Shown piece by piece: positions 455 through 32,244 of a stretch of DNA of 64,000 nt (within the stretch, counting starts at the first letter, position 1; each line of letters opens with the position of its first letter). Made by a program: the position numbers and the translations under genes. Source of the DNA: Costus lasius (Eukaryota > Streptophyta > Magnoliopsida > Zingiberales > Costaceae); the NCBI GenBank assembly GCA_027563935.2, contig CM050454.1:77148596-77212595 (forward strand), read 5' to 3'. A model generated the notes under the pieces. The model saw nothing but the letters and a program-made list of their open reading frames with translations. It ran no database searches and was not told the DNA's origin.

Positions 455-459
455 TTAAG

Positions 460-646
460 TGAAAGTACCCCTTTCATGAGGGGGGCGAAACCCTAATAGG
501 AGGCGCATATAAACTTTGATAGCGGAAGCAAGGATTTTTAGGGTTTCATAAGATCGCATGTGGTATAGCCATATGATCAACTTAATTTTAACTTAAGATC
601 AAGATGTGATCTTACCATTGCCATGGATGTGATCTTACCATTGCCA
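460..646 (-). repeat. 3'-terminal fragment of an old copia LTR, inverted
   Basis: Read on the minus strand, this matches the last ~185 bp of the LTR ending at 5220, with many substitutions and small gaps. The terminus TGAAAGTACCCC at 460 is the complement of the family LTR end. It is preceded by TTAAG (455-459), which recurs at 16772-16776 just beyond the other half of the LTR (15905-16771). The two halves are inferred to be one solo LTR split by the copia element at 647-15904. About 640 bp of its middle is missing at the left junction. Confidence 0.8.
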
Positions 647-648
647 TA
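603..648 (+). repeat. 23-bp tandem duplication at a deletion junction
   Basis: A unit starting GATGTGATCTTACC occurs twice in a row (603-625 and 626-648), directly against the point where the truncated 5' LTR begins (647). The parallel LTR at 10976 shows that 355 bp of 5' LTR is absent here. A short local duplication at a breakpoint is typical of end-joining repair with filler DNA; that mechanism is inferred. Confidence 0.75.
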
Positions 649-3600
649 TTGGTTAATTAAGTCCTTATTGGATTTCGGTTAAGTGAATGGTTAATGGTTA
701 AGTTAATTAAATTAATTGGTTAACTATGGGTTATTGGGTTTGAAAAATTCGAAATTATGAGTTAAATGGGTTAAACCCTATTGGAATTAATTGGTTAATG
801 GGTTTAAAATTTAAAAACCCAAAGTTTAAGTGGTAATATCGACTAGGGTGAGATTGTGGGCGTTTTTTTTTGGCTTGAGGAAATCTTGGGGCGGCTAGGG
901 CAAAGAAGAAGGCGATTCTTGGAGTTGTTGAGGTGATTTTCTTCATCTTCTTCCCCTTGGCGATTTTTCCTTGAAGTGAAGAAATTTCCTTGGTGTTTGG
1001 TGGTGACATCAAAGGCTTTGAACGATTTCTTTTGTGGAAAATTTTCGGTTTAAGAGGTGAGTGGATTTTCTCTTCCACTTAATCCATGTATGCTTGAGAT
1101 TATTGCTTAGAAACATGGCATGAACCCTTAATTTCAATTTTTGTACATGTTTCTATGTTTTCCCTAAAATTTCGAAAACCCTAGATTGTATGAGAATTAG
1201 GGCTTTTCATTTTTAAGGCTTCTAATCATCAATTAGACCTTGTTTAAGCATGTATGTAGCTTTAGTTTTTCAATTGCATGAAGTTTAGGGCTTGAATGAG
1301 AATTTCGACCCTTCTTCATGAAGTTACGCCCAAATGCATGGGTAAAATTTGGGGAAAACTTGATATTCATGAAATTAGGTATATGAGGACTCTACTGTAA
1401 TTTTTTGAGAATTTTTAGAAATAAAAGTTTCTGTTGACTGACATTGACCTAGGGGTAATTCGGTAAATTTTCTAGTTAAAATTGGGGAAAACTTGAAATT
1501 TCGAATCTAGGGATCATGAGGGATGTAATGAATATTTTTACGAAATTTTTGGATAACTTTTCCTGCATGACTTAAACTTTGAACTAGGGGTATTTCAGTC
1601 TTTTGTTATCAGAACTAGTAGAAAACTATGAAGTTGTGATATTCTACATTTATGTTAATTGTGAACGAAATTTGGTGAATTTTCTGTATTATTATGTATT
1701 TTTAATTGAATGGTGTATGTAGAAAGTAATGACATGAAATATTGATAGAGAACATTGGTTGATAACTTAGCAAAATTACACTGAACTGACCAGCCTGAAA
1801 TTTAAGGACTACACTATGTTATGTGATTTTTAAATATTGTGATTTGTGATTTTTGGCATGTTAAGTGATCTTTGAATATGTGAATATTATGTGGTTATGT
1901 GAAATTCGAAAATTATGTGGTTATGAGGTTCGAATATTATGTGTTGTGATTATGTGATGGTTAGGACTAAGGCTAGGTGTAACTATGAACTCAAGGGGAT
2001 AGCCCTGTTATGTGATATGTTAAGGGTTTGAATTTCAGCCCTGTATTGTGATATGTGAGGAGGTTGATGTTCAGCCTGCCTATTGTGATTATTGTGATGG
2101 GGGTTGATGTTCAGCCTGCCGATGTGATTTTGTGATGGCTATCCTAGAGTCTAGTTGACACTTAGGAGTCCACCTTTGTGAAATGTGAAATAAGATATGT
2201 GTGTTGTCCAGTAGGAACCTTTTGGGAGAACGGGTTTTGACCCAAAGTGCCATGTCTTGGTCAGACAGGGGCCACCTCTTGATGTCATTACTCTTTTATG
2301 TGTTGGGAATGGTATAAGACCCAAAGTGCCATGTCTTGGTCAGACAGGGGCCACCTCTTGATGTCACCATTCTCGTTTTGTGTTGGGAATGATATAAGAC
2401 CCAAAGTGCCATGTCCTGATCAGACAGGGGCCACCTCTTGATGTCATCATTCTCGTTTTATGTTATGGCGGGATAGACCAGCGTGCCACGTCGTGACCTG
2501 ACGGGGGCCACCTCCTGATTCTATTCTCGTTTTATGTTATGGCGTGATAGACCAGCGTGCCACGTCGTGACCTGACGGGGGCCACCTCCTGATTCTATTC
2601 ACTGTCCATGTTTATGTGTTGCACGAGATTTTGCAGCTCCCAGTGCTTTGGCCAAGCCGGGTTAGACCATATTGGTCACTTATGATATGCTGGACAACTA
2701 GGTTAAAAATGTGTTGGTGTGTTTAGTTGGTTTAGAATATGTGTGTTTAGTTGGTTTAGAGTATAACTCTAGAACCTGAGTTTGTTTAGAACCTGAGTTG
2801 ATTATGTTAGTGTGTACATCTGACTGTTTATGTGACTTCTGTATATTTAATCTGGTGATATGTTGACATTATGTTCCTGTTAAAGATTTTTAAAACAATC
2901 TGCCTATATTTTTGAGTGTATGTTATGGATGGTCAATTAGACTATCCACTCACTGGGCTGTGTAGCTCACCCCTCACTATTTTCAGGTATAGAGCAGGAG
3001 CGCAGTTAGCATGATATTGATGTTGTGATTTATGCTTATGATGTCGGTTGTGGCCCCATGTTTATGCTTAATTAATTTGAGGCTGGCTGTGGCCGAATAT
3101 GAATTTTATGATTTATGTGAACCATGTGATGTGAACCATGTGAACTATGAAAAATTGTGTTGCCAGACTGTGGCAGTTAAATGATGTTGATTCTTGTGTC
3201 ACCGCGGGCTTCAGCCTGGTTTCGGTGTTTGGTATTAGTTTATAAAATCGATTTTGTGGATTTGTTTTGAAATTGGAGTTGATGTGTATTTTTGCAATCG
3301 GTTTTGATACAACTGTAACGTGCATATGTCTAGTGCACGTATTGCGTGGTGGCAGGTACCTTTATGAGATTTATGATTTGTGATTCGAAGATTTTATGTG
3401 TTTGGAGTTTTGAAAATTTTCAGATCGTGTTTTCTTGAACTCGGTTTTACCTAGCATTTGATCGATCTTATATGAAACATCCTATTCCCTTTGTGATTGT
3501 GTTCTTTGTTTGGGGTTAAGAATGTGGGATGTTACAGTATGCCCTTAAGGCTAATGTTTGAGGCCTATGGGAATGTAACAAGTATCATGTAATAAACTCT

Positions 3601-5220
3601 ATGTGTTTATAAAGGCATGGTTGTTATTCAGTTAGCTACATTGTCTGCTGCAATATATGTTCTTCTGAATAATGTCTCAAAGCTGTTCAGCTGGGCTGAC
3701 ATGCTATTATGTCCTTAGTCGATATATCTTGGTAAACATGAGACAGCCTCGATATGGTTAAGACTAATATGTGTTCTAATCTTATAGGATGCTTCGAGCA
3801 TGGAATAAGATGTAGACTCATGGGTACATGGGATGTACTGGACAGACCCTACTAGGATGTTCAATTGTTTGTCACAATGTGAATATTCCTTGATTAAGAC
3901 AAGTGGCACATTTCCTCTGACTTGAGATCACTTGTGTTTTCTAAATGATGATTGTCATTGTTTTGAGGTAGTTCAATATCATTTGAAACATAATGATTAT
4001 AGACTATCTTGGATGGTGAGCTTGAATCAGGTTAGAGCACTAGTGATAGACATAGGATTGCCGTCTCCTTGTTTAAGGAGTGTGATGTTCTAAAGGGGCC
4101 CCCTGGATGAGATGATTGAGAGAGTGTATGGCCATACCCAGGTGACAGTGCTCATCTGTTCTAATCATGCTCATCATATTGGAGTTACGAGCTTGACAGG
4201 CTTGTCCAATAAGAACATCCAGTGGCAAAGGAAATATGTATGCTTTGTGAATTGATTCACACTTGTGCTGTTTTTGGGTGAAGTCTTGGAAGACTCTTTC
4301 CTTGATATCGGGAGACAGTGATGTGTTGCTAGATACCCCTCACTGGTTGTGATAATGTAAATTATCGTTACCGATGTTTTAAGGAAACCCTCAGGGTCGC
4401 ACAATTGATGATATGGCTTACTTAAGTCAGATCGTGTGGACTGAATTGTTTCGGGTTCAGTTTAAAGGGATTTAATCTCTGATTGTGAGTGAGATCTGGT
4501 CTGATCATGTTTGATTGATTAGGGCTTGAGATCGGTAAGCTTCGATCGAGAGAAGAGATGCTAGATCGGTCAGATCAGGAGCATCATAGAGATCAACGGC
4601 TAGATCTGGAACCTTAGGGTTTTAATATGATCTAGGCCATGTCGTTTGGTTTATTTGGTAATTGAACCAAAATTAAATTAAACCAAAATGGTTCAAGCAT
4701 TGGCGACAAGTTCACTTGGCGTGAACATGTTGGGCGGTTAGTGGTGCTATTTTTAGCAACCATGATCTCCACTTGGAGACACTCACGTTCGAAAGAGAGT
4801 GCTCTCTCTATTCTCGCCACTTGAACGCATTCCTCTTTTTTTTTGTTTTTCCGTGGGTAACGACGCCTTGGATTTGGAGGAGAAATCGGCAAAGAAAAGA
4901 TCTCTTCATCCCTTTCTCATTTTCGATCAAAGACTTCTTTGGATCTTGCTAGCACAAGGATCGCAAAGAGGAGTAGGCGACATCAACTGTGTGCGTCACC
5001 TCTGGAGAAGATCTGCTTTGATCTTTGCTTCCTAGGCGCCATTCGAAATGGCTATGGTATGAGTTTTATCTCTTACATGCAATCGTTTCCATTTGGTTGA
5101 TCATATCACATGAACCGATTCTTGAAACCCTAATCCGCTGCCCAAAAATTTTATGCGCCACTGCCTAGGGTTTTCGCTCCCCCTAGAAGGGGACCCCCCT
5201 TAGTTTAAGGGGTACTTTCA
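647..5220 (+). repeat. 5' LTR of the copia element, left end missing
   Basis: It matches 11331-15904 base for base wherever compared. The first 355 bp of the LTR, including the left terminus and about 340 bp of the embedded gypsy LTR, is absent. The gypsy portion runs to 3536 (GATGTTACA). Copia sequence resumes with the TSD copy GTATG at 3537-3541 and ends in TACTTTCA at 5220. A TATAAAGG at about 3610, some 75 bp into the copia part, is a possible promoter element of the original LTR; that is only a motif match. Confidence 0.9.
2239..2602 (+). repeat. Minisatellite inside the gypsy LTR (5' copy)
   Basis: There are five diverged tandem units of about 75-80 bp. Each has a core resembling AAGTGCCATGTC, a CAGGGGCCACCTC-type segment and a TGATG/GATTCTA-type end. 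Three units are of one subtype and two of a second (CGTGCCACGTCGTGACC). The same array is at 12923-13286, and shorter relatives lie in the other gypsy LTRs at 22861-23137 and 30896-31172. Confidence 0.85.
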
Positions 5221-5222
5221 AT

Positions 5223-5236
5223 TGGTATCAGAGGCT
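5223..5236 (+). other. Primer binding site, initiator tRNA-Met
   Basis: TGGTATCAGAGGC lies 2 bp after the LTR end at 5220. It is the usual plant copia/gypsy complement to the 3' end of tRNA-iMet and fixes the LTR boundary. Confidence 0.9.
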
Positions 5237-6153
5237 GATGTTTCATGCTTGTTTATGATTGCCATGATATGTCATATGATCCATGTATGCGCATTATAAT
5301 AGATCTATAGGTTACATGCGATTATCTAAGTTGGCGAAAATTCATGATTTGTATAGATGTTATTTTCTCCATTGCGCATGTTGTTGTTGGCGCATGTTTT
5401 TGTAAGTTTTTCTAAAACCTTGATCACATGCGCGTTTCACCTTAGATCTAATGCTCCTACATTAAACCCTTAGATGGGTTATTAGGGTTGAAGTCACCCC
5501 CTAGGTTAGATCCAAACATGTCTGATCAGACTATCTGACAGCCTGAATGGGTCGACCAGTTAGCACCTTGGCGCATGCCTGTGGTGGCTATAGGTCGACT
5601 GCAGACAGGTGTGTAGCGATGTCTGATTGAGACAACTGATGAACGCACCTGAGTTAGGCCCGGGGTCACGCCCGCTTGCCAGACCTCAGTGTGGTCGTTC
5701 AGCCTTGGTGCATGCATGGTTGACCTTTTGGTCGACTCAAGTCAGTTAGGACTTGGTGCATGCTAGGGCAGTGGATCTGACTAGGTTGGATGAGTGGATC
5801 CCTAGTAATGGACCATTGTAAGGTTGTGGGGCAAATAAGGAAAAATTAAAAAAAAAAAAAAATCGATCCCAAGGGGTTTTTTTAAAAATTTATTTTTCCT
5901 GACTGGATCACATGATGGTTGTTGCATCTGCTTGTTTATTTAGTCTTATGTGGGCTGCCCGTTTTTAATGTGTGCTGTGCTGGGGCCTGCGTGCCTGGAT
6001 TATATGTTGTAAATTAATTTTCTTTATGTGATCTGCGTATCACAATTTTAATTAATTTATAATGTGAAAGTGACCTGCGTGTCACTCTTGTCTAGATAGT
6101 TAAATTTGTAATTTAATTAGACAAGAGCACAATGCACACTTGGCAGAAGCGCA

Positions 6154-6196
6154 TGCAGCAGTGGCTGGACCAGGTGGGAGGTCTAGGGTTCGACCC
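6154..6196 (+). promoter_or_regulatory. tRNA-like pol III A/B-box pair
   Basis: GGGTTCGACCC at 6186-6196 is a near-perfect B box and sits in a perfect 7-bp hairpin (CTAGGGT-TCG-ACCCTAG) like a T-arm. A weaker A-box-like TGCAGCAGTGG lies about 32 bp upstream. The spacing fits a tRNA or tRNA-derived SINE head. No complete cloverleaf was found, so this is either a SINE relic inside the leader or chance plus element biology. Confidence 0.4.
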
Positions 6197-7073
6197 TAGG
6201 ACCAGGCGCAAATTCCTGGTGGGCGCACCAGAGCTGCAGTTGGCGCTTGGGCCCAGGTTTGGGCCAGATGAGCAGCTAAAGACCCATAAAGAGCAAGTGT
6301 AGACTTAAGTTAGGTTAAGGTCTCACTAGGGCTATGGGCCTTTACCACAAAAGACACATGCTTTCTTTTATTGCTTTATATTAGAATTGCATGAGTAAAT
6401 TTATCTTCTGCTATCACCATAGGAATTGCATGATAGGCAAGAAGATAAAAGACCGTTAAAATCCAACGATTAAATATCAAGCTCGTAAGCCTTCTGACGC
6501 GAAACCTCACTGTTCTGATTATCGTTGGAGCCGTGTTGTACCCACTCAGTGGGCACGTCCATCTATCTTCAGACGGTGCGGGATTACACCTGTGTGTTAC
6601 AGAGCAGGGATTTATCCCTTCTCGTTGCTCAGCATAGCACATGGTGGTCCAGGGAGTAGGTCGGGTCAGCTTGACCGTGTAGGCTACATATGTGGCGCAT
6701 ATGGTAGCACATGGAGGCAGCCATCTGTGGGGTCAGAGATTGTGTTGTACCAACTCAGTTGGCACAGTCTGCTGGACTGCCCAGATGAAGGGGAATCGCA
6801 CGGGTTGGCGATCGGCAGGGACTGCCTACCAGAAACTAGTGCTTGTACTCTCTGTGCATCTTATCTCGCCTGAGCGGGACGCGGAGACCAAGTATGAAAT
6901 CTGGATCCCATCTCACTAAAAGAGTTCTACTCTTTCGGGCTGTTTTGCTGGATTTTTCACGCCTGATAAAATAGTGAGAAAAAGAATCTTTCTTAAGTCC
7001 TGATTGATTCTTATACATTGATACTGACCTTGCTGTTCTTGCATTGTTGTAGATACCTGCAGCAACGAACACC

Positions 7074-10000
7074 ATGAACTTCAATGTGCGATCCCTACTG
7101 GAAAGAGAGAAGTTTGCTGGGCCGAACTTCTCTGACTGGTTTGGACACCTTAAGATCGTTCTTAAGGCAGAGAGGAAACTGTATGTCCTCGAGACGGCGA
7201 TACCGCCGCAGCCCGCTCCGAACGCCGCAAGGGCGGTTCGGGAAGCCTATGAAAAGCACGTCAATGATAGCATTGATGTCGCTTGCCTGATGTTAGCGTC
7301 TATGACGCCACCGCTGCAGCGTCAGCATGAGGACATGTCGGCTAGAGACATGATTACAAACCTCAAGATGTTGTATGCTGCACAGGCGAGGACTGAACGC
7401 TATAATTTGACGAAGCTCTTCTTTCAGAGCAAACTGGCTGAAGGGAGCCCAGTGGGAGCTCACGTGCTCAAGATGATTGGGCACAAGGAGGCTCTAGAGA
7501 AACTGGGGCATACCATCAACCAGGAGCTTGCTGTGGACATTATTCTGCAGTCTCTCCCGCCATCATTCGACGCGTTCATTATTAATTTTAATATGAACAA
7601 AATCGATTGTACTCCGGCAGAGCTGCTGAATATGCTCTTGACCACTGAGGAAACTCTGAAGGGTAAGCCTTCAACCTCTGTCTTGATGGTTCCTTCCAGG
7701 AACAAGAAGAAGGGGAAGAAGGGCAAGGCCCCGGTCAAGAATTACAGCAAGGCTCTGAAGCAGAAGGTGAAGCGGTCTAAGGAATACAGGTGTTTCCAAT
7801 GTGGCCAGCTGGGTCACTGGAAAAAGGACTGTAAAGCGCTCCAAGGAGATAAGAGGGGAAGCTTTGCTTCTGGCTCAGGTATATTCGTGACTGAGGTCAT
7901 GTATTCTTCTTCTGTATCATGGGTGTTGGACACTGCATGTGGAGTTCACATTTGTTCAAATGTGCAGGAACTCAAGAGAAGAAGGCAGGTGGGACAGCAT
8001 GAGGTGGACCTACGCGTTGGAAACGGGGCACGGGTTGCTGCTGTTGCTGTAGGAGACTACTTCATTACTTTACCATCTGGAATTGTATTGGAACTAAACA
8101 GTTGTTATTTTGTTCCCAGTATAACTAAAAATATTATCTCCATTCCTGCTCTTGTCAGGAAGGGGTTTTCCTTTGAATGCAATATTTCAAAGTGTGTTTT
8201 GTCATATGATAATATTGTTTATGCAACTGGTTCAATTAATAATGGGTTATTCATGTTGGACATGGAAAGTTCTATACAGAATGTTGATATTAAGAAAGCC
8301 AAGTATGCTGATGACAGCACCTTGCTATGGCATAGTCGTTTAGGCCATATTAACGAGAAACGCATTAAGCGGTTGCATGATCATGGACTGCTGGGATCAT
8401 TCTCCTATAAGGAGATTGATACATGCAAAGCTTGTTTGATGGGTAAAATGACGAAGTCACCTTTTCCTAATAAAGGTCAAAGGGCTTCAGGTTTACTTGA
8501 CCTCATACACAGTGATGTGTGTGGGCCATTTAGTAAACATGCCAGAGGTGGCTATCAGTACTTCATTACATTTACTGATGATTTCAGTAGATATGGGTAT
8601 GTCTATCTGATGAGACATAAGAGTGAATCTTTTGACAAGTTCAAAGAGTTCAAGAATGAAGTACAAAATCAGCTAGGCCGTAATATCAAGGCACTTCGCT
8701 CAGATCGAGGTGGTGAATACCTAAGTCATGCATTTACTGACTATCTAAAGGAGTGTGGGATTATCTCACAGCTCACTCCACCTGGAACACCGCAATGGAA
8801 TGGTGTGTCCGAGAGGAGAAATAGAACGTTACTTGATATGGTTCGTTCTATGATGAGTCAGGCTACTCTTCCATACTCCTTTTGGGGTTTTGCGCTGGAA
8901 ACAGCTGCAAAGGTACTAAACCGAGTGCCATCCAAGGCAGTTTCAAAGACGCCATATGAGTTATGGTATGGGAAACAGCCGAGCTTGACATTTATCAGGA
9001 TCTGGGGTTGCGAGGCTTATGTTAAAAAGCTCGCCTCTGGGAAACTAGAGAGCAGATCTGACAAATGTATCTTTGTCGGTTACCCTAAGGAAACTAAGGG
9101 TTATTATTTCTTCGATCCCAATGAGAACAAGGTTTTTGTTGCTCGGACGGCCATATTTCTTGAGAAGGAGTTTCTTCTGCAAGAGGCCAGTGGGAGAGAA
9201 ATAAAGCTGGATGAGAATCCAGAAGAAGGACAAAGTGATCAAGCACAGTTGGATGAGCCTGAGCCGGTAGAACAGGTTATTGAACAACCTGAGGCTCAGA
9301 CATCACGGGAACCGCGAAGATCGGGTAGGATTCGTCGACAGCCTGAGCGCTATGACGGAGTCTACATCATTGGCAATGATGAACCCCTTACTTATGCGGA
9401 TGCGGTCAGTGGACCAGAGTCAGCGAGATGGCTTGAGGCTATGCGCGCCGAGATGGACTCCATGTCAGATAACCAAGTCTGGGATTTGGTTGATCCGCCT
9501 CCGGGAGTTATCCCTATAGGCTGTAAATGGATCTTCAAGAAGAAGATTGACATGGATGGTAACGTAGTTACCTATAAAGGCAGGCTAGTTGCGAAAGGTT
9601 TCAAACAAATCTACGGGATAGATTATGATGAAACTTTCTCACCTGTAGCCATGTTTAAGTCTATTCGGATTCTTTTCGCGATAGCTGCATATTATGATTA
9701 TGAGATTTGGCAGATGGATGTGAAAACAGCTTTCCTTAATGGAAATCTGGATGAGGATGTGTATATGACACAACCAGAAGGTTTCACTAATCCAGCAGAT
9801 CGTCATAAAATATGCAAGTTAAAGAAGTCCATTTATGGACTTAAACAAGCATCAAGAAGCTGGAATATTCGTTTTGATGAATCAGTTACTGAATTTGGTT
9901 TCATCAAGAACGAGGATGACCCGTGTGTATATAAGAGGTTTAGTGGGAGCGTGATTACTTTCCTAGTCCTCTACGTCGATGATATCTTGATCATTGGAAA

Positions 10001-10955
10001 CGACATTCCTGAAATGCATGCTGTTAAGGCATGGCTGAGGAAATGTTTCCAGATGAAAGATCTAGGAGAAGCAGCCTATGTGTTAGGTGTGAAGATCTAC
10101 AGGGATAGATCTAAGAGGCTTCTCGGGCTGTGCCAGAGTACTTACATCGATAAGGTCCTGGAGAGATTTCACTTAGAGAATTCTAAGCGAGGATATCTTC
10201 CAGTCAGACATGGTCTGAATCTTTCTAAGAGTCAGTGTCCACAAACACAGACTGAGAAAGATGAAATGAACAATACGCCTTATGCTTCGGCTATTGGTTC
10301 TATAATGTATGCGATGTTGTGTACTCGCCCAGACGTTGCTTACGGGTTAAGCGTAACCAGTCGTTACCAGAGTAATCCAGGTATGGCGCACTGGATTGCA
10401 GTCAAGAACATTTTAAAATATCTGCGAAGGACCAAAGATATGTTCTTGATATATGGTGGTCAGGAAGAACTCAGTATTGAAGGATATACTGACGCTTCGT
10501 TCCAGTCTGACCAGGATGATTTCCGATCGCAATCAGGCTATGTTTTTAGCTTGAATGGAGGTGCAGTGGTGTGGAAAAGTTTCAAACAGTCAACTGTTGC
10601 TGATTCCACAACAGAAGCCGAGTATGTTGCAGCCTCGGAAGCATCCAAGGAGGCAGTGTGGATTCGTAAGTTCGTGAGAGAACTTGGTGTCGTTCCTTCG
10701 TGTGCAGATCCTTTGGTTATCTTCTGTGATAACACTGGAGCAATCGCACAGGCAAAGGAACCACGGTCGCACCAGAAGTCCAAGCACATACAGAGACGGT
10801 TTCATTTGATCAGGGAGATCATAGATCGTGGCGAGATCAAAGTATGCAAGGTTCATACAGATGACAATCTGGCAGACCCGCTTACCAAGCCTCTGGCGCA
10901 GCAGAAGCATGAGAAGCACTGTAATAATATGGGTTTGAGATTTCTCAACCATTAG
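7074..10955 (+). CDS. Copia gag-pol polyprotein, 1293 aa, intact
   Basis: This single frame encodes everything needed for copying and integration. GAG includes a CCHC knuckle (CFQCGQLGHWKKDC, residue ~240). The aspartic protease has VLDTACG (~286); DTA in place of DTG also occurs in the second copia here and in plant elements such as Tnt1, so it is not read as a defect. Integrase has an H-H-C-C zinc site (~420-455) and a core starting near HSDVCGPF (~480), with the GTPQWNG..ER region following. Reverse transcriptase has the YVDDILI catalytic box (~967). RNase H starts YTDASFQ (~1140) and ends near DPLTKPL. The start MNFNVRSLLEREKF follows the leader and aligns with the family start in the second copia (residues after MATNNG). 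No stop or frameshift is visible, so the element looks potentially autonomous. Confidence 0.96.
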   Translation: MNFNVRSLLEREKFAGPNFSDWFGHLKIVLKAERKLYVLETAIPPQPAPNAARAVREAYEKHVNDSIDVACLMLASMTPPLQRQHEDMSARDMITNLKMLYAAQARTERYNLTKLFFQSKLAEGSPVGAHVLKMIGHKEALEKLGHTINQELAVDIILQSLPPSFDAFIINFNMNKIDCTPAELLNMLLTTEETLKGKPSTSVLMVPSRNKKKGKKGKAPVKNYSKALKQKVKRSKEYRCFQCGQLGHWKKDCKALQGDKRGSFASGSGIFVTEVMYSSSVSWVLDTACGVHICSNVQELKRRRQVGQHEVDLRVGNGARVAAVAVGDYFITLPSGIVLELNSCYFVPSITKNIISIPALVRKGFSFECNISKCVLSYDNIVYATGSINNGLFMLDMESSIQNVDIKKAKYADDSTLLWHSRLGHINEKRIKRLHDHGLLGSFSYKEIDTCKACLMGKMTKSPFPNKGQRASGLLDLIHSDVCGPFSKHARGGYQYFITFTDDFSRYGYVYLMRHKSESFDKFKEFKNEVQNQLGRNIKALRSDRGGEYLSHAFTDYLKECGIISQLTPPGTPQWNGVSERRNRTLLDMVRSMMSQATLPYSFWGFALETAAKVLNRVPSKAVSKTPYELWYGKQPSLTFIRIWGCEAYVKKLASGKLESRSDKCIFVGYPKETKGYYFFDPNENKVFVARTAIFLEKEFLLQEASGREIKLDENPEEGQSDQAQLDEPEPVEQVIEQPEAQTSREPRRSGRIRRQPERYDGVYIIGNDEPLTYADAVSGPESARWLEAMRAEMDSMSDNQVWDLVDPPPGVIPIGCKWIFKKKIDMDGNVVTYKGRLVAKGFKQIYGIDYDETFSPVAMFKSIRILFAIAAYYDYEIWQMDVKTAFLNGNLDEDVYMTQPEGFTNPADRHKICKLKKSIYGLKQASRSWNIRFDESVTEFGFIKNEDDPCVYKRFSGSVITFLVLYVDDILIIGNDIPEMHAVKAWLRKCFQMKDLGEAAYVLGVKIYRDRSKRLLGLCQSTYIDKVLERFHLENSKRGYLPVRHGLNLSKSQCPQTQTEKDEMNNTPYASAIGSIMYAMLCTRPDVAYGLSVTSRYQSNPGMAHWIAVKNILKYLRRTKDMFLIYGGQEELSIEGYTDASFQSDQDDFRSQSGYVFSLNGGAVVWKSFKQSTVADSTTEAEYVAASEASKEAVWIRKFVRELGVVPSCADPLVIFCDNTGAIAQAKEPRSHQKSKHIQRRFHLIREIIDRGEIKVCKVHTDDNLADPLTKPLAQQKHEKHCNNMGLRFLNH

Positions 10956-10961
10956 ATTAAG

Positions 10962-10975
10962 TGCAAGTGGGAGAT
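10962..10975 (+). other. Polypurine tract of the copia element
   Basis: GCAAGTGGGAGAT lies immediately before the LTR start TGTTGGGG at 10976. AAGTGGGAGATTGTTGG is the usual plant copia plus-strand primer/LTR junction. Confidence 0.85.
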
Positions 10976-10987
10976 TGTTGGGGTATG

Positions 10988-13900
10988 TGTAAGATCCAAG
11001 GATCTTAAGTTCTGGTAAGCATTATTTTCTATGATAAATTATGATAAATTATTGATGTAAATAAAATTATTAACTGAGTTATTATTCCTGAGTATTGATT
11101 GTTAATTTATGATAAATTAACTAGAGATTTTGTTGTTAATTAACTGATTTATTGATTGTTAATTTGTAATTAATGGATTTGAGTTTATTTGGTTGTTAAT
11201 TTATTGTAAATTAATTAGAGATTATTGATTTGATTATTGGCTGTTAATTTATGATAAATTATTATTGGTTGTCCATGATAAATTAATTAGGATTTATGGG
11301 TTGTAAATTGTAAGTTAATTAATTAGACCTTATTGGTTAATTAAGTCCTTATTGGATTTCGGTTAAGTGAATGGTTAATGGTTAAGTTAATTAAATTAAT
11401 TGGTTAACTATGGGTTATTGGGTTTGAAAAATTCGAAATTATGAGTTAAATGGGTTAAACCCTATTGGAATTAATTGGTTAATGGGTTTAAAATTTAAAA
11501 ACCCAAAGTTTAAGTGGTAATATCGACTAGGGTGAGATTGTGGGCGTTTTTTTTTGGCTTGAGGAAATCTTGGGGCGGCTAGGGCAAAGAAGAAGGCGAT
11601 TCTTGGAGTTGTTGAGGTGATTTTCTTCATCTTCTTCCCCTTGGCGATTTTTCCTTGAAGTGAAGAAATTTCCTTGGTGTTTGGTGGTGACATCAAAGGC
11701 TTTGAACGATTTCTTTTGTGGAAAATTTTCGGTTTAAGAGGTGAGTGGATTTTCTCTTCCACTTAATCCATGTATGCTTGAGATTATTGCTTAGAAACAT
11801 GGCATGAACCCTTAATTTCAATTTTTGTACATGTTTCTATGTTTTCCCTAAAATTTCGAAAACCCTAGATTGTATGAGAATTAGGGCTTTTCATTTTTAA
11901 GGCTTCTAATCATCAATTAGACCTTGTTTAAGCATGTATGTAGCTTTAGTTTTTCAATTGCATGAAGTTTAGGGCTTGAATGAGAATTTCGACCCTTCTT
12001 CATGAAGTTACGCCCAAATGCATGGGTAAAATTTGGGGAAAACTTGATATTCATGAAATTAGGTATATGAGGACTCTACTGTAATTTTTTGAGAATTTTT
12101 AGAAATAAAAGTTTCTGTTGACTGACATTGACCTAGGGGTAATTCGGTAAATTTTCTAGTTAAAATTGGGGAAAACTTGAAATTTCGAATCTAGGGATCA
12201 TGAGGGATGTAATGAATATTTTTACGAAATTTTTGGATAACTTTTCCTGCATGACTTAAACTTTGAACTAGGGGTATTTCAGTCTTTTGTTATCAGAACT
12301 AGTAGAAAACTATGAAGTTGTGATATTCTACATTTATGTTAATTGTGAACGAAATTTGGTGAATTTTCTGTATTATTATGTATTTTTAATTGAATGGTGT
12401 ATGTAGAAAGTAATGACATGAAATATTGATAGAGAACATTGGTTGATAACTTAGCAAAATTACACTGAACTGACCAGCCTGAAATTTAAGGACTACACTA
12501 TGTTATGTGATTTTTAAATATTGTGATTTGTGATTTTTGGCATGTTAAGTGATCTTTGAATATGTGAATATTATGTGGTTATGTGAAATTCGAAAATTAT
12601 GTGGTTATGAGGTTCGAATATTATGTGTTGTGATTATGTGATGGTTAGGACTAAGGCTAGGTGTAACTATGAACTCAAGGGGATAGCCCTGTTATGTGAT
12701 ATGTTAAGGGTTTGAATTTCAGCCCTGTATTGTGATATGTGAGGAGGTTGATGTTCAGCCTGCCTATTGTGATTATTGTGATGGGGGTTGATGTTCAGCC
12801 TGCCGATGTGATTTTGTGATGGCTATCCTAGAGTCTAGTTGACACTTAGGAGTCCACCTTTGTGAAATGTGAAATAAGATATGTGTGTTGTCCAGTAGGA
12901 ACCTTTTGGGAGAACGGGTTTTGACCCAAAGTGCCATGTCTTGGTCAGACAGGGGCCACCTCTTGATGTCATTACTCTTTTATGTGTTGGGAATGGTATA
13001 AGACCCAAAGTGCCATGTCTTGGTCAGACAGGGGCCACCTCTTGATGTCACCATTCTCGTTTTGTGTTGGGAATGATATAAGACCCAAAGTGCCATGTCC
13101 TGATCAGACAGGGGCCACCTCTTGATGTCATCATTCTCGTTTTATGTTATGGCGGGATAGACCAGCGTGCCACGTCGTGACCTGACGGGGGCCACCTCCT
13201 GATTCTATTCTCGTTTTATGTTATGGCGTGATAGACCAGCGTGCCACGTCGTGACCTGACGGGGGCCACCTCCTGATTCTATTCACTGTCCATGTTTATG
13301 TGTTGCACGAGATTTTGCAGCTCCCAGTGCTTTGGCCAAGCCGGGTTAGACCATATTGGTCACTTATGATATGCTGGACAACTAGGTTAAAAATGTGTTG
13401 GTGTGTTTAGTTGGTTTAGAATATGTGTGTTTAGTTGGTTTAGAGTATAACTCTAGAACCTGAGTTTGTTTAGAACCTGAGTTGATTATGTTAGTGTGTA
13501 CATCTGACTGTTTATGTGACTTCTGTATATTTAATCTGGTGATATGTTGACATTATGTTCCTGTTAAAGATTTTTAAAACAATCTGCCTATATTTTTGAG
13601 TGTATGTTATGGATGGTCAATTAGACTATCCACTCACTGGGCTGTGTAGCTCACCCCTCACTATTTTCAGGTATAGAGCAGGAGCGCAGTTAGCATGATA
13701 TTGATGTTGTGATTTATGCTTATGATGTCGGTTGTGGCCCCATGTTTATGCTTAATTAATTTGAGGCTGGCTGTGGCCGAATATGAATTTTATGATTTAT
13801 GTGAACCATGTGATGTGAACCATGTGAACTATGAAAAATTGTGTTGCCAGACTGTGGCAGTTAAATGATGTTGATTCTTGTGTCACCGCGGGCTTCAGCC

Positions 13901-14220
13901 TGGTTTCGGTGTTTGGTATTAGTTTATAAAATCGATTTTGTGGATTTGTTTTGAAATTGGAGTTGATGTGTATTTTTGCAATCGGTTTTGATACAACTGT
14001 AACGTGCATATGTCTAGTGCACGTATTGCGTGGTGGCAGGTACCTTTATGAGATTTATGATTTGTGATTCGAAGATTTTATGTGTTTGGAGTTTTGAAAA
14101 TTTTCAGATCGTGTTTTCTTGAACTCGGTTTTACCTAGCATTTGATCGATCTTATATGAAACATCCTATTCCCTTTGTGATTGTGTTCTTTGTTTGGGGT
14201 TAAGAATGTGGGATGTTACA
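10988..14220 (+). mobile_element. Gypsy solo LTR embedded in the copia 3' LTR
   Basis: It starts TGTAAGATCC and ends GGGATGTTACA, the same ends as the LTRs of the complete gypsy element at 20951-24204 and 28986-32239. It is 3233 bp and flanked by perfect 5-bp TSDs GTATG (10983-10987 and 14221-14225). Sequence similarity to those LTRs is obvious throughout, with many substitutions and indels, so it is an older member of the family. A second copy, missing its first part, sits at the homologous place in the 5' copia LTR (647-3536). Confidence 0.95.
12923..13286 (+). repeat. Minisatellite inside the gypsy LTR (3' copy)
   Basis: This is the same five-unit array as at 2239-2602, shifted by exactly 10684 bp. 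Retention of an identical, slippage-prone array in both LTRs supports very recent common origin of the two LTRs. Confidence 0.85.
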
Positions 14221-15904
14221 GTATGCCCTTAAGGCTAATGTTTGAGGCCTATGGGAATGTAACAAGTATCATGTAATAAACTCTATGTGTTTATAAAGGC
14301 ATGGTTGTTATTCAGTTAGCTACATTGTCTGCTGCAATATATGTTCTTCTGAATAATGTCTCAAAGCTGTTCAGCTGGGCTGACATGCTATTATGTCCTT
14401 AGTCGATATATCTTGGTAAACATGAGACAGCCTCGATATGGTTAAGACTAATATGTGTTCTAATCTTATAGGATGCTTCGAGCATGGAATAAGATGTAGA
14501 CTCATGGGTACATGGGATGTACTGGACAGACCCTACTAGGATGTTCAATTGTTTGTCACAATGTGAATATTCCTTGATTAAGACAAGTGGCACATTTCCT
14601 CTGACTTGAGATCACTTGTGTTTTCTAAATGATGATTGTCATTGTTTTGAGGTAGTTCAATATCATTTGAAACATAATGATTATAGACTATCTTGGATGG
14701 TGAGCTTGAATCAGGTTAGAGCACTAGTGATAGACATAGGATTGCCGTCTCCTTGTTTAAGGAGTGTGATGTTCTAAAGGGGCCCCCTGGATGAGATGAT
14801 TGAGAGAGTGTATGGCCATACCCAGGTGACAGTGCTCATCTGTTCTAATCATGCTCATCATATTGGAGTTACGAGCTTGACAGGCTTGTCCAATAAGAAC
14901 ATCCAGTGGCAAAGGAAATATGTATGCTTTGTGAATTGATTCACACTTGTGCTGTTTTTGGGTGAAGTCTTGGAAGACTCTTTCCTTGATATCGGGAGAC
15001 AGTGATGTGTTGCTAGATACCCCTCACTGGTTGTGATAATGTAAATTATCGTTACCGATGTTTTAAGGAAACCCTCAGGGTCGCACAATTGATGATATGG
15101 CTTACTTAAGTCAGATCGTGTGGACTGAATTGTTTCGGGTTCAGTTTAAAGGGATTTAATCTCTGATTGTGAGTGAGATCTGGTCTGATCATGTTTGATT
15201 GATTAGGGCTTGAGATCGGTAAGCTTCGATCGAGAGAAGAGATGCTAGATCGGTCAGATCAGGAGCATCATAGAGATCAACGGCTAGATCTGGAACCTTA
15301 GGGTTTTAATATGATCTAGGCCATGTCGTTTGGTTTATTTGGTAATTGAACCAAAATTAAATTAAACCAAAATGGTTCAAGCATTGGCGACAAGTTCACT
15401 TGGCGTGAACATGTTGGGCGGTTAGTGGTGCTATTTTTAGCAACCATGATCTCCACTTGGAGACACTCACGTTCGAAAGAGAGTGCTCTCTCTATTCTCG
15501 CCACTTGAACGCATTCCTCTTTTTTTTTGTTTTTCCGTGGGTAACGACGCCTTGGATTTGGAGGAGAAATCGGCAAAGAAAAGATCTCTTCATCCCTTTC
15601 TCATTTTCGATCAAAGACTTCTTTGGATCTTGCTAGCACAAGGATCGCAAAGAGGAGTAGGCGACATCAACTGTGTGCGTCACCTCTGGAGAAGATCTGC
15701 TTTGATCTTTGCTTCCTAGGCGCCATTCGAAATGGCTATGGTATGAGTTTTATCTCTTACATGCAATCGTTTCCATTTGGTTGATCATATCACATGAACC
15801 GATTCTTGAAACCCTAATCCGCTGCCCAAAAATTTTATGCGCCACTGCCTAGGGTTTTCGCTCCCCCTAGAAGGGGACCCCCCTTAGTTTAAGGGGTACT
15901 TTCA

Positions 15905-16771
15905 ACCCTGAGGGTTTCCTTTAAATGTCGGTAACGATAACTTACGTTATCACGATCAGTGAGGGGTATCTAGCAACACATCACTGTCTCCCGATATAAA
16001 GGAAAGAGTCTTCCAAGACTACACCCAAACCACAGCACAAGTGTGAATCAACTTCACTAGGCATACATGTTTCCTTTGCCACTGGATGTTCTTATTGGAC
16101 AAGTGTGTCAAGCCTGTAGCTCCAATATGATGAGCATGATTAGACCAGATGAACATAGTCACCTGGGTATGGCCATACACTTTCTCAATCATCTCATTCA
16201 GGGGGGCCCCTTTAGAACATCACACTCCTTAAGCAAGAAGACGGCAATCCTATATCTATCACTAGTGTCCTAACCTGACTCATGATCATTATCCAAGATA
16301 GTCTATAACCATTATGTTTCAAATGATATTGAACTACCTCAAAACAATGACAATCATCATTTAGAAACACAAGTGATCTCAAGTCAGAGGACATGTGCCA
16401 CTTGTTGCAAACAAGGATTATTCACATTGTGACAAGCAATTGAATATCCTAGTAGGGTCTGTCCAGTACATCCAATGTACCCATGAGTCTACATCTTATT
16501 CCATGCTCGAAGCATCCTATAAGATTAGAACACATATTAGTCTCAATCATATCAAGGCTGTCTCATGTTCACCAAGATATCTCGACTAAGGACATTACAG
16601 CATGTCAGCCAAGCTGAACAGCATTGAGACATTATTCAGAAGCACACTTATTGCAGCAGACAATGTAACATACTGAATAACAACCATTGCCTTTATAAAC
16701 ATAAGAGTTTATACATGATACTGAAAGAATCCCAAGGCCTCAAACATTAGCCTTAAGGGCATACCCCAACA
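15905..16771 (-). repeat. 5' part of the old inverted copia LTR, with the empty gypsy site
   Basis: On the minus strand this starts TGTTGGGGTATGCCC at 16771 and follows the copia LTR to a point equivalent to 4397, diverging moderately. The LTR reads straight from GGGGTATG into CCCTTAAGG, where the young element carries 3.2 kb of gypsy LTR. It is therefore a pre-insertion allele of the family. TTAAG at 16772-16776 matches 455-459. Confidence 0.88.
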
Positions 16772-16776
16772 TTAAG

Positions 16777-20160: not shown

Positions 20161-20950
20161 TGTGATGCTTAAATCATTTGGACCAGGCCAAAAGGGGAGG
20201 CCCTAGTCGTCCAACGCGGACAGCCTAGATCCAGTCCCTCTGCCCGATTTCGTATGCACGTGGAAGAAGATGAAATCGGGCTTGTCGATGCAACTCTCGA
20301 CGGAATCTTTGGTGATGTTCTTGGCGACGACAACGGCGGCGACTCCGGGCGAAATCCTCGGCAATGTCTTCGGAATGATCAGCGGCCCCTCTCCGGCGAG
20401 GACTACGGGTGGACGTAGTCAGAAGAGGAATTCGGCTGGCAAAGGCATGCGAAGGAAGGATCGGCAAAATCACGTATGGTGGTGTGATTCAGGGAGTCTG
20501 AAAATGGTAGGATCAGCTGGAGAGCCGATCCCCTTCCATAGGCAGCACCCTTTGTCCCCTTCAAGAACCGGAGTGGACAAGCGAGATGGGGTAGAGCAGG
20601 CGAGCGCGACTTCCCCACTTGGGAGTCTTTGGCAACACTCTTCCCAGCCTCCGTCCAAGTAGAAGAGAGGGGGAGGTGGGTCTAGAACCACGGTGACGTG
20701 GTTCTACTGCCTCCCCCATGCGAGTTCGGCGGCTTGGTCAACGACGAGAGATTCTAGCGAGGTTAGGGAGAGAACTGTAGTCGACGGCGAGGGGCCGTCG
20801 ACATGGGAGAGCGAAACAGAGAGGGTTTAGGTAGGTTTGGATTAATGTAAATGGAAATTTCCCTTATTATCTCTGTCTTCCCCGGTGAACTCCTACTCCT
20901 TTGTGTTTCCCGGTGAAGGTCTTCTTCACCATCCCCGGCGGCATGGAAAG
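20161..20950 (+). repeat. 5' LTR of the small element, part 1
   Basis: It matches 32963-33756 with scattered substitutions. Compared with the 3' LTR it lacks about 14 bp containing the TATA-like CTATAAGG (3' LTR ~33627). The last five bases, GAAAG, are the TSD of the inserted gypsy element. The 5' LTR resumes at 32245. Confidence 0.85.
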
Positions 20951-23900
20951 TGTAAGATCCAAGGATCTGAAGTCCTGGTAAGCATTATTTGGATTTAAAT
21001 AAAATCATTAGCTGTGATACTTTATTATGATTTAAATAAAATTATTGGATGCTAATTAACTGGCTTATTGATTGTTAAATTGTAATTATTTGATTTGTGA
21101 TTTATATTGGTTGTTAATTTATGGTAAATAAATTTGAGATTAATGGTTGATTATTGGTTGTTAATTTAGGATAAATTAATTAGACCTTATTGGATATTAA
21201 TTAAATCCTTATTGGATTTTGCGTTTAAGTGAAGTAATTAATTGGATGTTAATTTAAACTCTTATTGGATGTTCACTTAAACTAAGGGTTATTGGGTTAC
21301 ACTTAAATTAGATTTAAAATTCGAAATTTGTTAGTTAAATGGGTAAAACCTAATTGAATTAATGGGTCAATGGGTTAAGGAATTAAAAACCGAAAATTCC
21401 AATTAGTATTTCGGTTAGGGTGGAATTTTTGGGCGAGATTTTGGCTTGAGAGAAAACTTTGGGCGACGGCTAGGAAGAAGGAGGCGACTTTGGGTTCTTG
21501 GAATTTTGAGGTGATTTTCTTCATCTTCTTCCCTTGGTGATTTTCCTTGAAGTGAAGAAACTTCCTTGGCGAGTTCTTGAAGATTTTTGGGCGGCTTAAA
21601 GGCTTTAGACGAAATTGTTGGAGGGTTTTTCACCTTGGTGTTCACGGTTCAAGGTGAGTGGAATGTCTTGTTTGACTTATGAATTTAGTGGTGTTTGTGA
21701 CATGATACATTTGAGTTGTTGGAATTTTCATCTTGTTAAAACCAAATTTAGAACATAGAAACCGAAATTAATATGTTCTTCATGAAAACCAAAGCTAAGG
21801 TATTTTTCCATGAAATCGAATAGATATTCTTGTTCTTCATGAAAACCGAAATCTTGATGTTCTTGATAATTGTTTATGAAAACTGAATTTGATGTTTGTA
21901 GTTAACCTAAAAACCGAAATCTTGATGTTCTTGACAATTGTTTATGAAAACCGAATTTGATGTTTGTAGTTAACATGAAAACCGAAATCTTGATGTTCTT
22001 GATAATATGCATGAAAACCGAAATTTAGATGATTTTCTTTATGAAATCCGAAAGTTGGTAATATGAAATTTAAGGTATTAAATTATGGAAATTCGGAAGT
22101 TTTAGACCAATGGTTTGAGCATGAAATTCATGTTAATTCAAGGTGTAAAATTTAATAGATAGTATGTTATGTTAACCGTGGTTTATATGTAGAGGTTTGT
22201 AAAATAGTTGGTATGAATACATGTTTTAATTTTGTTAATTTTATGGATAGTTTGTATGACTACATGTTTTAGTTTTATGTTAATTTTTATGGATGCTTGT
22301 TAACTGCATTATTGAGAAGTTGTTTGAGAAATTTGGATGATAACCTAGTAAGGTTTGACTGAACTAATCAGCATGAAACCTAAGGACCACACTACATTAT
22401 ATGATTGTTAATATTATGTAATTATGTGATTTTTAAATATTAGGTGTTTATGTGATTTTTGGAATATTATGTTGTTATGTAAATTGTGAACATTATGTGG
22501 TTATGAGATTTTTGAAAATTATGTGATTATGAGAATTTTGAATATTATGTGTTATGTGATGGTTAGGACTAAGGCTAGGTGTAACTATGAACTCAAGGGG
22601 ATAGTCCTTATGTGTTATGTTAAGGGTTTGAATTTCAGCCCTGTATTGTGATATGTGAGGAGGTTGATGTTCAGCCTGCCTATTATGATTATTGTGATGG
22701 GGGTTGATGTTCAGCCTGCCCGATATGATTTTTGTGATGACTATCCTAGAGTCTAGTTGACACTTAGGAGTCCACCTTTGTGAAATATGTTCACCTATGT
22801 GAAATATGAAATAAGATGTGTCTGTTGTCCAGTAGGAACCTTTTGGGAGAACGGGTTTTTGACGCAAAGTGCCATGTCTTGGTCGGACAGGGGCCACCTC
22901 TTGATGTCATAACTCTTTTATGTGATGGGGTAATATAAGACGCAAAGTGCCATGTCTTGATCAGACAGGGGCCACCTCTTGATGTCATTACTCTTTATGT
23001 GATGGGGTGATATAAGACGCAAAGTGCCATGTCTTGATCAGACAGGGGCCACCTCTTGATGTCATCACTCTGATGTGTTATGGAGTGATAGAGCAAAGTG
23101 CCACGTCGTGACCTGGCGGGGGCCACCTCTTGATTCTACTCACTATCCATGTTTATGTGTTGCATGCGGCTCCCAGTGCTTTGGCCAAGCCGGGTTAGAC
23201 CATATTGGTCACTACTGAATATGCTGGACAACTAGGTTGCTTATGTGTTGGTGTGTTTAGTGGTTTAGAGTATAACTCTAGAACCTGAGTTTGTGAACCT
23301 AAGTTGTTATGTGTTTAGTTGGTTTAAAATATATGTGTTTAATTGGGTTAGAGTAAAACTCTAGAACCTGAGTTTGTGAACATGAGTTTGTTATATGCTA
23401 GTGTGTACATCTGACTGTCTATATGATTTCTGTTTCTTTATTTTGTTATATGTTGACATAATGTTCTTGTTAAAGATTTTTAAAATAATCTGCCTATATT
23501 TTTGAGTGTATGTTATGGATGGTCGATTTAGACTATCCACTCACTGGGCTGTGTAGCTCACCCCTCATTATTTTCAGGCATAGAGCAGGGGCGCATTTCA
23601 TGAGTAACATTGGCGTGGATATTATGTTTGCTGCTTAAGAACTTTTATGCTAAAATTTTCTGGAGCCGGTTGTGGCTAAACCATATGATTTATATGAACT
23701 ATGTGAACTATGTGATGTGAACCATGTGAACTATGTGAATTTGTGTTGCCAGATTGTGGCAGTTAACTGAGTTTGATTTTTGTGTCACCGCGGGCTTCAG
23801 CCTGGTTTCGGTGTTTGGTATGGGTTTATAAAATCGATTTTGTGATTTTGTTTTGAATTTCGGCTTGTTGTATATTCCGTGCAATCGGTTTTGATATACC

Positions 23901-24204
23901 CTGTAACTTGCATATGTCTAGTGCAAGTATTGCCTGGTGGCAGGTACCTTTATGGATTTTATGAATTTGAATCGGTTTTGATATAACTGTTGCCTTGCAT
24001 ATGTCTAGTGCAAGGATTGCGTGGTGGCAGGTACCCTTATGAGATTTGAGTTTTGTGAATTTGTGTGTATGGATTTATGAAATTTTTCAGATCGTGTTTT
24101 CTTGAACTCGGTTTTACCTAGCATATGATCGATCTTATATGAAACATCCTGTATCATTTGTGAATTGTGCCATTTGTTTGGGGTTAAGAATGTGGGATGT
24201 TACA
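20951..24204 (+). repeat. 5' LTR of the gypsy element
   Basis: TGTAAGATCC…GATGTTACA. It contains three roughly 65-bp tandem units rich in AAACCGAAATCTTGATG (about 21838-22020), a four-unit minisatellite (22861-23137), and two copies of a hairpin-capable segment around GCATATGTCTAGTGC (about 23908 and 23998). The small frames in it are not supported as genes. Confidence 0.95.
22861..23137 (+). repeat. Minisatellite in the gypsy 5' LTR
   Basis: There are four units of about 76-78 bp with the core AAAGTGCCATGTCTTG and GACAGGGGCCACCTC, the last diverged. It is homologous to the five-unit array at 2239-2602. The array differs in copy number between family members. Confidence 0.85.
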
Positions 24205-24207
24205 GAA

Positions 24208-24225
24208 TGGTATCAGAGCAGTTGG
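24208..24225 (+). other. Primer binding site of the gypsy element
   Basis: TGGTATCAGAGCAGTTGG begins three bases after the LTR end and is complementary to tRNA-iMet. Confidence 0.92.
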
Positions 24226-24353
24226 CTAGCTAAAACTTAGTTTGGGGGAAAACATGTTTGTGTATTGCTAGACACCTATTAGGTTTATGATTGTTTTCCT
24301 AACTATGATATGTGTGTGACTATGATATGTGCGTGTAGGAATTTGAATTTAAG

Positions 24354-25634
24354 ATGGTGCGAACCAGAGGAAATGCTAGTGATGAGGGCGAGCAGACCCC
24401 GAACCTCACGAGAACTATTGAGGCTCTGACTGGCATGGTTCAGCAACAAGGTGATATGATAGAAAGGCAAGCTCAGATGCTGCAGCAGCAGCAGACTCAG
24501 CACCAAGAAGCACAACAGCAGCTTTTGCAGCAGCTGACTCGAGAGAGACCCCAGACTACTACTCGAGCGGTGGGGGATGACTCTCAGGAGGGCGCTCACA
24601 GGCGCTATGCTTCACTTGTGAGTGAATTCCAGAAACTGGGTCCCAGCTCTTTTTATGGGGGCTCAGAATCCAGTAATGCCGAAAATTGGCAGCTGTGCTT
24701 GGAAAAGATTTTCCAAGTTATGCGTTGCTCGGACGAAGACAAGTTATGTCTGACCACCTACATGATGCGTGCTGACGCAGATGAGTGGTGGAAAGGCGTG
24801 GTGAGACTTGCCGAAGAAAGACATGAGACTGTAGACTGGCCTTACTTCTTGTCTCGATTTAACGAGAAGTATTTCCCAGATAGCTTGGTTGAGGACCGAG
24901 AGGTGGAATTTATTCACCTGGAGCAGGGTGATATGACAGTGGACCAGTATGAATTACAGTTCACGAAATTGGGAAAGTATGCTCCTCATCTGATAAACAC
25001 TGAAAAGAGGAGAGCTACCAAGTTTCTCAGAGGTCTCAGATGGGACATTAGAGAGCAGGTTGGTGCTCAACACTTGGAGACCTATGTTGAAACTGTTGGG
25101 CGAGCGCGCACCATTGAGAGGTATATATCTGAGAGGAGTTCTCATGTTGCCGTGACAGTAGTTCCTGCAGCTGAGGCGGCGGTTCCTCAGCATGGCAGTG
25201 GCGGCAAGGGTAAGAAGTACCCTAGGCATAAAGATTATAAGAAGAGCAGGTATAAGCCTTACTCCTACAAGGCACCGCAGCAGTCCAGGGATGCACCGCA
25301 GCAGTTCAGGGATGCCAGGGATGCAAGAAACGGTATCACTTGTAGTCATTGTGGGCTCAAGGTACATCTAGTGAAAGACTGCCATAGGAAGAATGGTGTA
25401 TGCTTCAGGTGTAAGAAACCAGGGCACATGGCTAAGGACTGCAAAGAACCTGAGATGCAACCTAGAGGCGCAGATAAGCCTACAGTCCAGACTAGAGTGT
25501 ATGCTGTGGCTGAGAAGGATACACGAGCTTCCCGATCTGTCGTGGAAGGTACTTTATTCGTATTTGATCAGTTAGCCCGCATATTATTTGACCCTGGTGC
25601 TGTTTACCTGTGTTACCTAAGGTGTATCTGTTAA
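24354..25634 (+). CDS. Gypsy GAG polyprotein with start of protease
   Basis: 426 codons. The N-terminus [12 protein letters not shown] is followed by a glutamine-rich coiled-coil region (residues ~30-65, [10 protein letters not shown]). The gag core is at ~85-230 ([19 protein letters not shown]…ADEWWKG…FNEKYFP). Two CCHC knuckles start near residue 329: [14 protein letters not shown], where a valine replaces the usual glycine before H, and [14 protein letters not shown]. The protease flap start FDPGA is reached near residue 415, then the frame runs off into VYLCYLRC and stops. In intact relatives gag and pol are continuous here. The break coincides with a 24-bp segment present twice (25601-25624 and 25645-25668). 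GAG itself looks usable for particle assembly. Confidence 0.92.
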
Positions 25635-28600: not shown

Positions 28601-28764
28601 TTGTAGGCCCTTTTGATATTATTGAGAGAATTGGTCCAGTGGCTTACCGATTAGCTTTACCTCCTGCTATGGATCATGTGCATAATGTATTCCATGTCTC
28701 TGCTTTGAGGAAATATCATCCTGATCCATCTCATGTGTTGGAGTTAGAACCTCTTCAGATTTAG
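25621..28764 (+). CDS. Gypsy pol: protease remainder, RT, RNase H, integrase
   Basis: This frame is open from 25621, in a different phase from gag, with no ATG that must be used; expression would need the ancestral fusion frame. The protease C-terminal part has [13 protein letters not shown]. Reverse transcriptase has [13 protein letters not shown] and the catalytic FIDDILVYS (~residue 327 from 25621). RNase H has [10 protein letters not shown] (~474). The integrase zinc region ([11 protein letters not shown]…CLTCQ) starts ~690. The catalytic core has MDFVCGLP (~760), DRDSRFLS and [13 protein letters not shown]-terminal GPF(D)[12 protein letters not shown] segment follows. All catalytic boxes are present. 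The frame ends at a TAG (28762-28764) that separates integrase from an in-frame chromodomain. Confidence 0.93.
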
Positions 28765-28956
28765 AGTGACTTGACATTCGAGGAAAGACCTCTCCGGATT
28801 GTGGATAGAAAAGATAAAGTCCTGAGGAACAAGACTATACCTTTGGTAAAGGTTATCTGGGAAAATCAGTCAGTTGAGGAGGCGACATGGGAGACTGAAG
28901 CTGATATGAGGAAATTTTATGCTTACCTCTTTGATGATATGGATGCTGAGCTTTAG
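28765..28956 (+). pseudogene. Chromodomain cut off from gypsy pol by one stop codon
   Basis: After the TAG at 28762 the same frame continues for 63 codons (SDLTFEERPLRIVDRK…) and contains VKVIWENQSVEEATWETE, the hallmark end of plant chromovirus chromodomains that guide integration to heterochromatin. Only one nonsense change separates it from the integrase tail (…LEPLQI). A CAG-to-TAG change would explain it, but the ancestral codon is inferred. Unless the stop is read through, new integrases lack the targeting module. Confidence 0.9.
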
Positions 28957-28971
28957 AGGACTAAAGCTTTA

Positions 28972-28985
28972 TAAGGAGGGAGGGA
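28972..28985 (+). other. Polypurine tract of the gypsy element
   Basis: AAGGAGGGAGGGA immediately precedes the 3' LTR start TGTAAGATCC at 28986. Preceding sequence is the end of the chromodomain frame (TAG at 28954-28956). Confidence 0.9.
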
Positions 28986-32239: not shown

Positions 32240-32244
32240 GAAAG

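Follow-up and report, generated by a model that had tools for sequence, protein, structure and literature searches.

The locus described here raises the question of how one and the same gypsy LTR came to lie in both LTRs of a single copia element. It was found in a stretch of 64,000 nucleotides from Costus lasius (assembly GCA_027563935.2, contig CM050454.1, positions 77,148,596 to 77,212,595 of the forward strand), which as a whole is called the window below. The first-pass annotation had reasoned that one insertion event reaches only one LTR, which stands, and that presence in both would mean either passage of the chimeric LTR through reverse transcription or conversion between the LTRs. The features of the locus are collected in Table 1.

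Table 1. Features of the nested copia element and of the old LTR that surrounds it, in positions of the window.
Feature	Position	Strand	Remarks
TTAAG, left TSD of old inverted solo copia LTR	455-459	.	
Old inverted copia LTR, outer part	460-626	-	starts TGAAAGTACCCC; assigned by terminus and TSD; similarity weak (E 0.001, 0.012)
Scar	604-647	+	21-bp unit ATGTGATCTTACCATTGCCAT at 604, repeated at 627, then broken insert
Left copia LTR (truncated), inner 2,890 bp of gypsy LTR	647-3536	+	
Left copia LTR, GTATG and native part	3537-5220	+	identical to 14221-15904
Primer-binding-like site	5222-5234	+	TTGGTATCAGAGG
gag-pol open frame, 1,293 aa	7074-10955	+	Retrotran_gag_2, gag_pre-integrs, rve, RVT_2
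Polypurine-type tract preceding 3' LTR	10965-10975	+	AAGTGGGAGAT
Right copia LTR	10976-15904	+	TGTTGGGGTATG, gypsy LTR of 3,233 bp, GTATG, remaining 1,679 bp native
Native head of right copia LTR	10976-10987	+	TGTTGGGGTATG; first GTATG at 10983-10987
Solo gypsy LTR, complete, 3,233 bp	10988-14220	+	starts TGTAAGATCC, ends GGGATGTTACA
Second GTATG and remaining right copia LTR	14221-15904	+	GTATG at 14221-14225
Old inverted copia LTR, inner part	15905-16771	-	92% (799/872) to young LTR; insertion site empty
TTAAG, right TSD of old solo LTR	16772-16776	.	

The host of the insert was assigned to Ty1/copia by its gag-integrase-reverse transcriptase order with RVT_2, together with two LTRs, of which the left is truncated, a primer site and a polypurine tract. 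The primer site presumably matches initiator tRNA-Met. The copia family was identified through sibling elements and through the element at locus C1, described below. From the 5-bp duplication of this young copia, ACCCT was present at 15905-15909, while its left partner was absent, gone with the left edge. The insert of the right LTR was a whole gypsy LTR, bordered by GTATG at each end and lacking an internal region, i.e., a solo Ty3/gypsy LTR. That both copia LTRs hold the same gypsy LTR was confirmed: the segments 647-5220 and 11331-15904 agreed over 4,574 bp with zero differences, and the right junction (gypsy end followed by GTATGCCCTTAAGG) was present in the window at both 3537 and 14221. 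The sole mismatch given by BLAST between the copia LTRs, 646/11330, falls on the broken left edge. As the two 4.57-kb copies are identical, chance is no concern. The left LTR starts within the gypsy LTR and misses its outer 355 bp, and the left junction is preserved solely in the right LTR. The position claimed earlier for the insert, at the same base of each LTR, between GTATG repeats and 12 bp inside the native U3 end, was borne out at both edges in the right LTR; the left LTR has one edge, with GTATG at 3537, and none of the 12 bp. The empty site TGTTGGGGTATGCCCTTAAGG was found in the window's old inverted copia LTR and in all 10 sibling LTRs that were fetched, by which the gypsy insert is derived and GTATG is its 5-bp duplication. 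Two promoters and polyadenylation regions had also been proposed for the chimeric LTR; the motifs TATAAA (13925 and 14292) and AATAAA (11060, 12104 and 14275) of the right copy might hint at them.

The young copia sits within an older, inverted solo copia LTR (460-16771) with TTAAG on each flank, and by our estimate about 650 bp of this old LTR are missing at the left junction. The break at 647, together with the 21-bp unit at 604 and 627, presents the pattern of an aborted strand invasion followed by end joining, a pattern that a plain deletion may resemble. Elsewhere in the window we observed a pair of repeats 92% alike (39312-43264) that flank a minus-strand gag and a protease-like remnant, an imperfect palindrome (48351-50188) that across 1.9 kb is approximately 69% identical to its reverse complement, and a minus-strand tRNA-Ile with anticodon TAT (57665-57736, ARAGORN call).

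The junctions were searched for in the genome assembly from which the window was taken (one assembly, 1.279 Gb in 269 contigs). With up to three mismatches allowed, the right junction gave 110 matches. The exact ones were the two of the window and one each at C1:44,932,062 and C3:52,618,987; none in the assembly had one mismatch, and the matches with two or three mismatches, among those listed, resembled ordinary LTR heads. The left junction, with up to two mismatches, matched at two places in the assembly, the right LTR of the window and C1. The copia at C1 is flanked by the duplication GAACC; its 5' LTR is empty, and its 3' LTR is filled at the same base, again between GTATG repeats. The gypsy LTR inserted there, 3,142 bp long, is a different one, with pieces 70-85% alike to the insert of the window and 73-95% alike to a second gypsy element of the window. 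At C3 the same base holds an LTR-like insert of 1,836 bp that matches neither gypsy LTR, and the LTR that carries it has a polypurine tract to its left and a primer site to its right. The two loci (L039-L040, C1:44921487-44933800; L043, C3:52617162-52618997) thus hold differing LTR-type inserts at one base of the copia LTR, in the orientation seen in the window. The second gypsy (20951-32239) has two LTRs that differ at 1 of 3,254 positions and the duplication GAAAG; it interrupts one LTR (20161-20950 and 32240-32482) of a short element, and the partner LTR (32963-33999) is empty, an ordinary contrast to the copia above.

Other loci with the same junction had been suggested as a check for propagation, and this check failed: C1, with both edges, and C3, with the right edge, carry independent inserts and are not copies of the chimera. 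Their reading as propagated copies was ruled out by the different inserts and by the empty 5' LTR at C1. At the level of the exact junction no parent or copy of the window chimera was found in the assembly; two or more loci with the same insert and junction between different copia duplications were likewise not found in this one assembly, and exact-junction scans of viral contigs gave 0 matches. Judged from these sequences, the same base of the copia LTR is one that was struck independently three times, in the window, at C1 and at C3. The LTR head CAGTATGCCCTTAAGGCT was matched at 2,501 places with at most one mismatch. Among 20 left flanks of gypsy copies 17 ended in G, and 9 of the 20 fell in the copia family of the window, 3 being within its LTR; the repeated insertions may be explained by a strong base preference, which would weaken a reading as hotspot. 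The end TTACA was absent from 14 of the 18 exact CAGTATGCCCTTAAGGCT places (CAGTATGCCC), which are therefore not of the window's gypsy type and may represent point variants or other inserts. One exact CAGTATGCCCTTAAGGCT pair (G000; C1:76,554,987 and 76,577,917, 22.9 kb apart) is possibly a single element with both LTRs changed.

The age of the insert was approached through its relatives. At first look the best 40 of 2,657, the best 40 of 3,291 and the best 40 of 4,024 candidates were scored. From the best-scored or picked gypsy places 26 LTRs were fetched, and 4 of these were dropped since they had no complete LTR end, which left 22; in an earlier set 2 of 20 had been dropped for the same reason. 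The gypsy lineage is near-uniform: 16 of the best 40 of 3,291 places, two of them in the window, were identical over 801 bp. The insert carries one substitution (11072) that was absent from all 22 relatives, and a 22-bp deletion common to one of the 22, a two-LTR gypsy with duplication TATGT at C9:57.95 Mb on the same contig. From both LTRs of this element, the closest found, the insert differs by the substitution at 11072 and by one homopolymer base (11546), and such near-identity makes it young. The 22-bp deletion, situated near the left break, had been considered as a private event joining the two lesions, and was discarded as such because the relative at C9:57.95 Mb has it too. The native part of the copia LTR differs from 10 fetched sibling LTRs by 2-6 substitutions; the only clean private one, at 15543, occurs in both window LTRs and in 0 of the 10 siblings. 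Among the best 40 of 4,024 places, 13 sibling LTR pairs had a gypsy-free spacing of 7,411-7,448 bp; the corresponding distance in the window is 10,684 bp. At a rate of 1.3e-8 substitutions per site and year, taken from an excerpt of PMC7251063, 0 differences in 4,574 bp correspond to less than about 25,000 years and 0 differences across the native 1,684 bp to less than about 68,000 years (95% bounds). The LTRs of the C1 copia differ at 8 of 1,690 positions, approximately 180,000 years, a span that takes in both gypsy insertion and solo formation. Dating as a means to discriminate between explanations was dropped: the insert is too young for time to separate them, and so is the copia.

The account that we favour, and hold to be somewhat better than an even bet, is that the gypsy solo LTR was copied in place from the 3' to the 5' copia LTR by one-sided break repair that ended in end joining. 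A young gypsy would have entered the 3' LTR of the young copia, at a base also used by unrelated elements, and would have been reduced to a solo LTR. The right LTR would then have been the donor, the direction of copying being assumed. If the left LTR or its immediate flank was broken and resected beyond the 12-bp head, the exposed end may have entered the right LTR by pairing with native sequence, and leftward synthesis across the gypsy LTR would have covered 2,890 bp or more. With no homology past the head, it would have been joined with templated filler to the old LTR, at the cost of the roughly 650 bp noted above. Because just 12 bp of homology lie outside the insert, a conversion tract cannot close there by annealing, and an end-joined edge is expected on that side alone; the scar sits on the side predicted by this geometry, which supports copying in place. 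The lack of a parent or daughter at junction level in the assembly and the gypsy-free state of the closest siblings found count in the same direction. C1, with its empty 5' LTR and filled 3' LTR, has the state expected before copying, and the span given by its LTRs, taken with the near-identical insert of the window, makes the timing feasible. Against copying in place, identity over all 4,574 bp leaves no conversion boundary visible, and identical LTRs are equally expected from reverse transcription; the left truncation may be a later, unrelated deletion; the comparable duplications of nematodes, taken up below, are seldom seen in wild type; and a parent of the chimera may exist in another haplotype, as its absence rests on one assembly. 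From the original pair of reverse transcription or conversion, then, propagation finds no copy in the assembly to speak for it, and a conversion tract is unprovable where the LTRs are identical throughout. Copying in place is probably to be preferred over retrotransposition of the chimera; the odds that we attach are a judgement and were not computed, and neither is proved.

Retrotransposition of the chimera we regard as possible and clearly the less probable of the two. As reverse transcription takes U3 for both LTRs from the RNA's 3' end, an insert in the 3' U3 of a parent would have reached both LTRs of a daughter in one cycle; the daughter would have entered the old solo LTR, and its left edge would have been lost afterwards. 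The insert, 12 bp from the LTR start, does lie within U3; the LTRs are identical over the shared 4,574 bp, gag-pol has an open frame, the private substitution at 15543 is in both LTRs, and with TATAAA at 14292 downstream of the insert the copia core promoter may be intact. Double-copy retroviral and lentiviral vectors follow the same logic, as a 3' U3 insert appears in both LTRs after one cycle (PMC3025823, in the portion used here); these are engineered and take shorter inserts, and an insert of 1.2 kb in U3 already reduces vector output according to the same portion, whereas in the assembly the window has no natural propagated copy, neither parent nor sister. The RNA would also have to read through a full gypsy LTR with its own 3'-end signals, and the left scar requires a separate event. 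In the survey of nested plant elements, LTRs were the least nested region and none of 26 candidates among 1,491 nested pairs was judged co-retrotransposed (PMC6911290, as excerpted). A natural double-copy retrotransposon, i.e., a copia with a gypsy LTR and its promoter in U3 that replicated a 4.9-kb chimeric LTR via RNA, is put forward only tentatively. Unequal crossing over between LTRs of sister copies offers another route, by way of a three-LTR tandem that a deletion then shortened, taking away the leftmost LTR, an internal region and the margin of the middle LTR. It accounts for the broken left edge, and the middle LTR at C3, set between polypurine tract and primer site, indicates that such tandems exist in the genome; it calls for two large rearrangements, the sequence left of 647 shows no trace of a second internal region, and we think it improbable. 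Alternatively, each copia LTR may have received its own gypsy at the identical base, with solo formation following in both; the independent strikes at C1 and C3 and the near-uniformity of the gypsy lineage speak for this. It is nevertheless highly improbable: one element would have to be struck twice, each insert be reduced to a solo LTR, and both copies carry the shortened homopolymer at 11546. An assembly artefact is just as hard to credit, since the two copies have distinct, specific flanks and the locus lies within a 113-Mb contig.

Comparison with known systems places the locus between several of them. A gypsy solo LTR in a copia with a 5-bp duplication is like the nested LTRs and solo LTRs described for plants in the parts used of PMC1950507 and PMC6911290, and all three inserts fit this; the window differs in having an identical nested insert in each LTR of a single element. 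A limited look through titles and abstract openings found no natural example of an element whose two LTRs share a nested LTR. LTR-to-LTR conversion, scored as putative in 25% of plant LTR pairs in the excerpt of PMC7251063, likewise makes the paired LTRs of an element alike. What was scored there were converted stretches, whereas the window would carry a foreign insert of at least 2.9 kb and one-sided end joining. In Caenorhabditis elegans, aborted strand-invasion intermediates are end-joined after tracts of about 100 bp to 10 kb, in repair mutants and rarely in wild type, according to the available part of PMC8654963. These polymerase theta tandem duplications are alike in that copying from a homologous template is followed by a non-homologous join with microhomology or templated insertion; they come from nematode repair mutants, and the window is compared with them by sequence alone.

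The three independent inserts at one base of a copia LTR provide natural before and after states, with C1 set against the window. Copying of the insert in place, if correct, would mean that LTR identity is not always a date for integration, and that one-sided break repair can move a long foreign insert between the LTRs of an element, an idea that the 12-bp outer homology arm makes testable. If the chimera was retrotransposed, the locus would be a natural case in which one element gained the promoter and control region of another in both of its LTRs within a single cycle.
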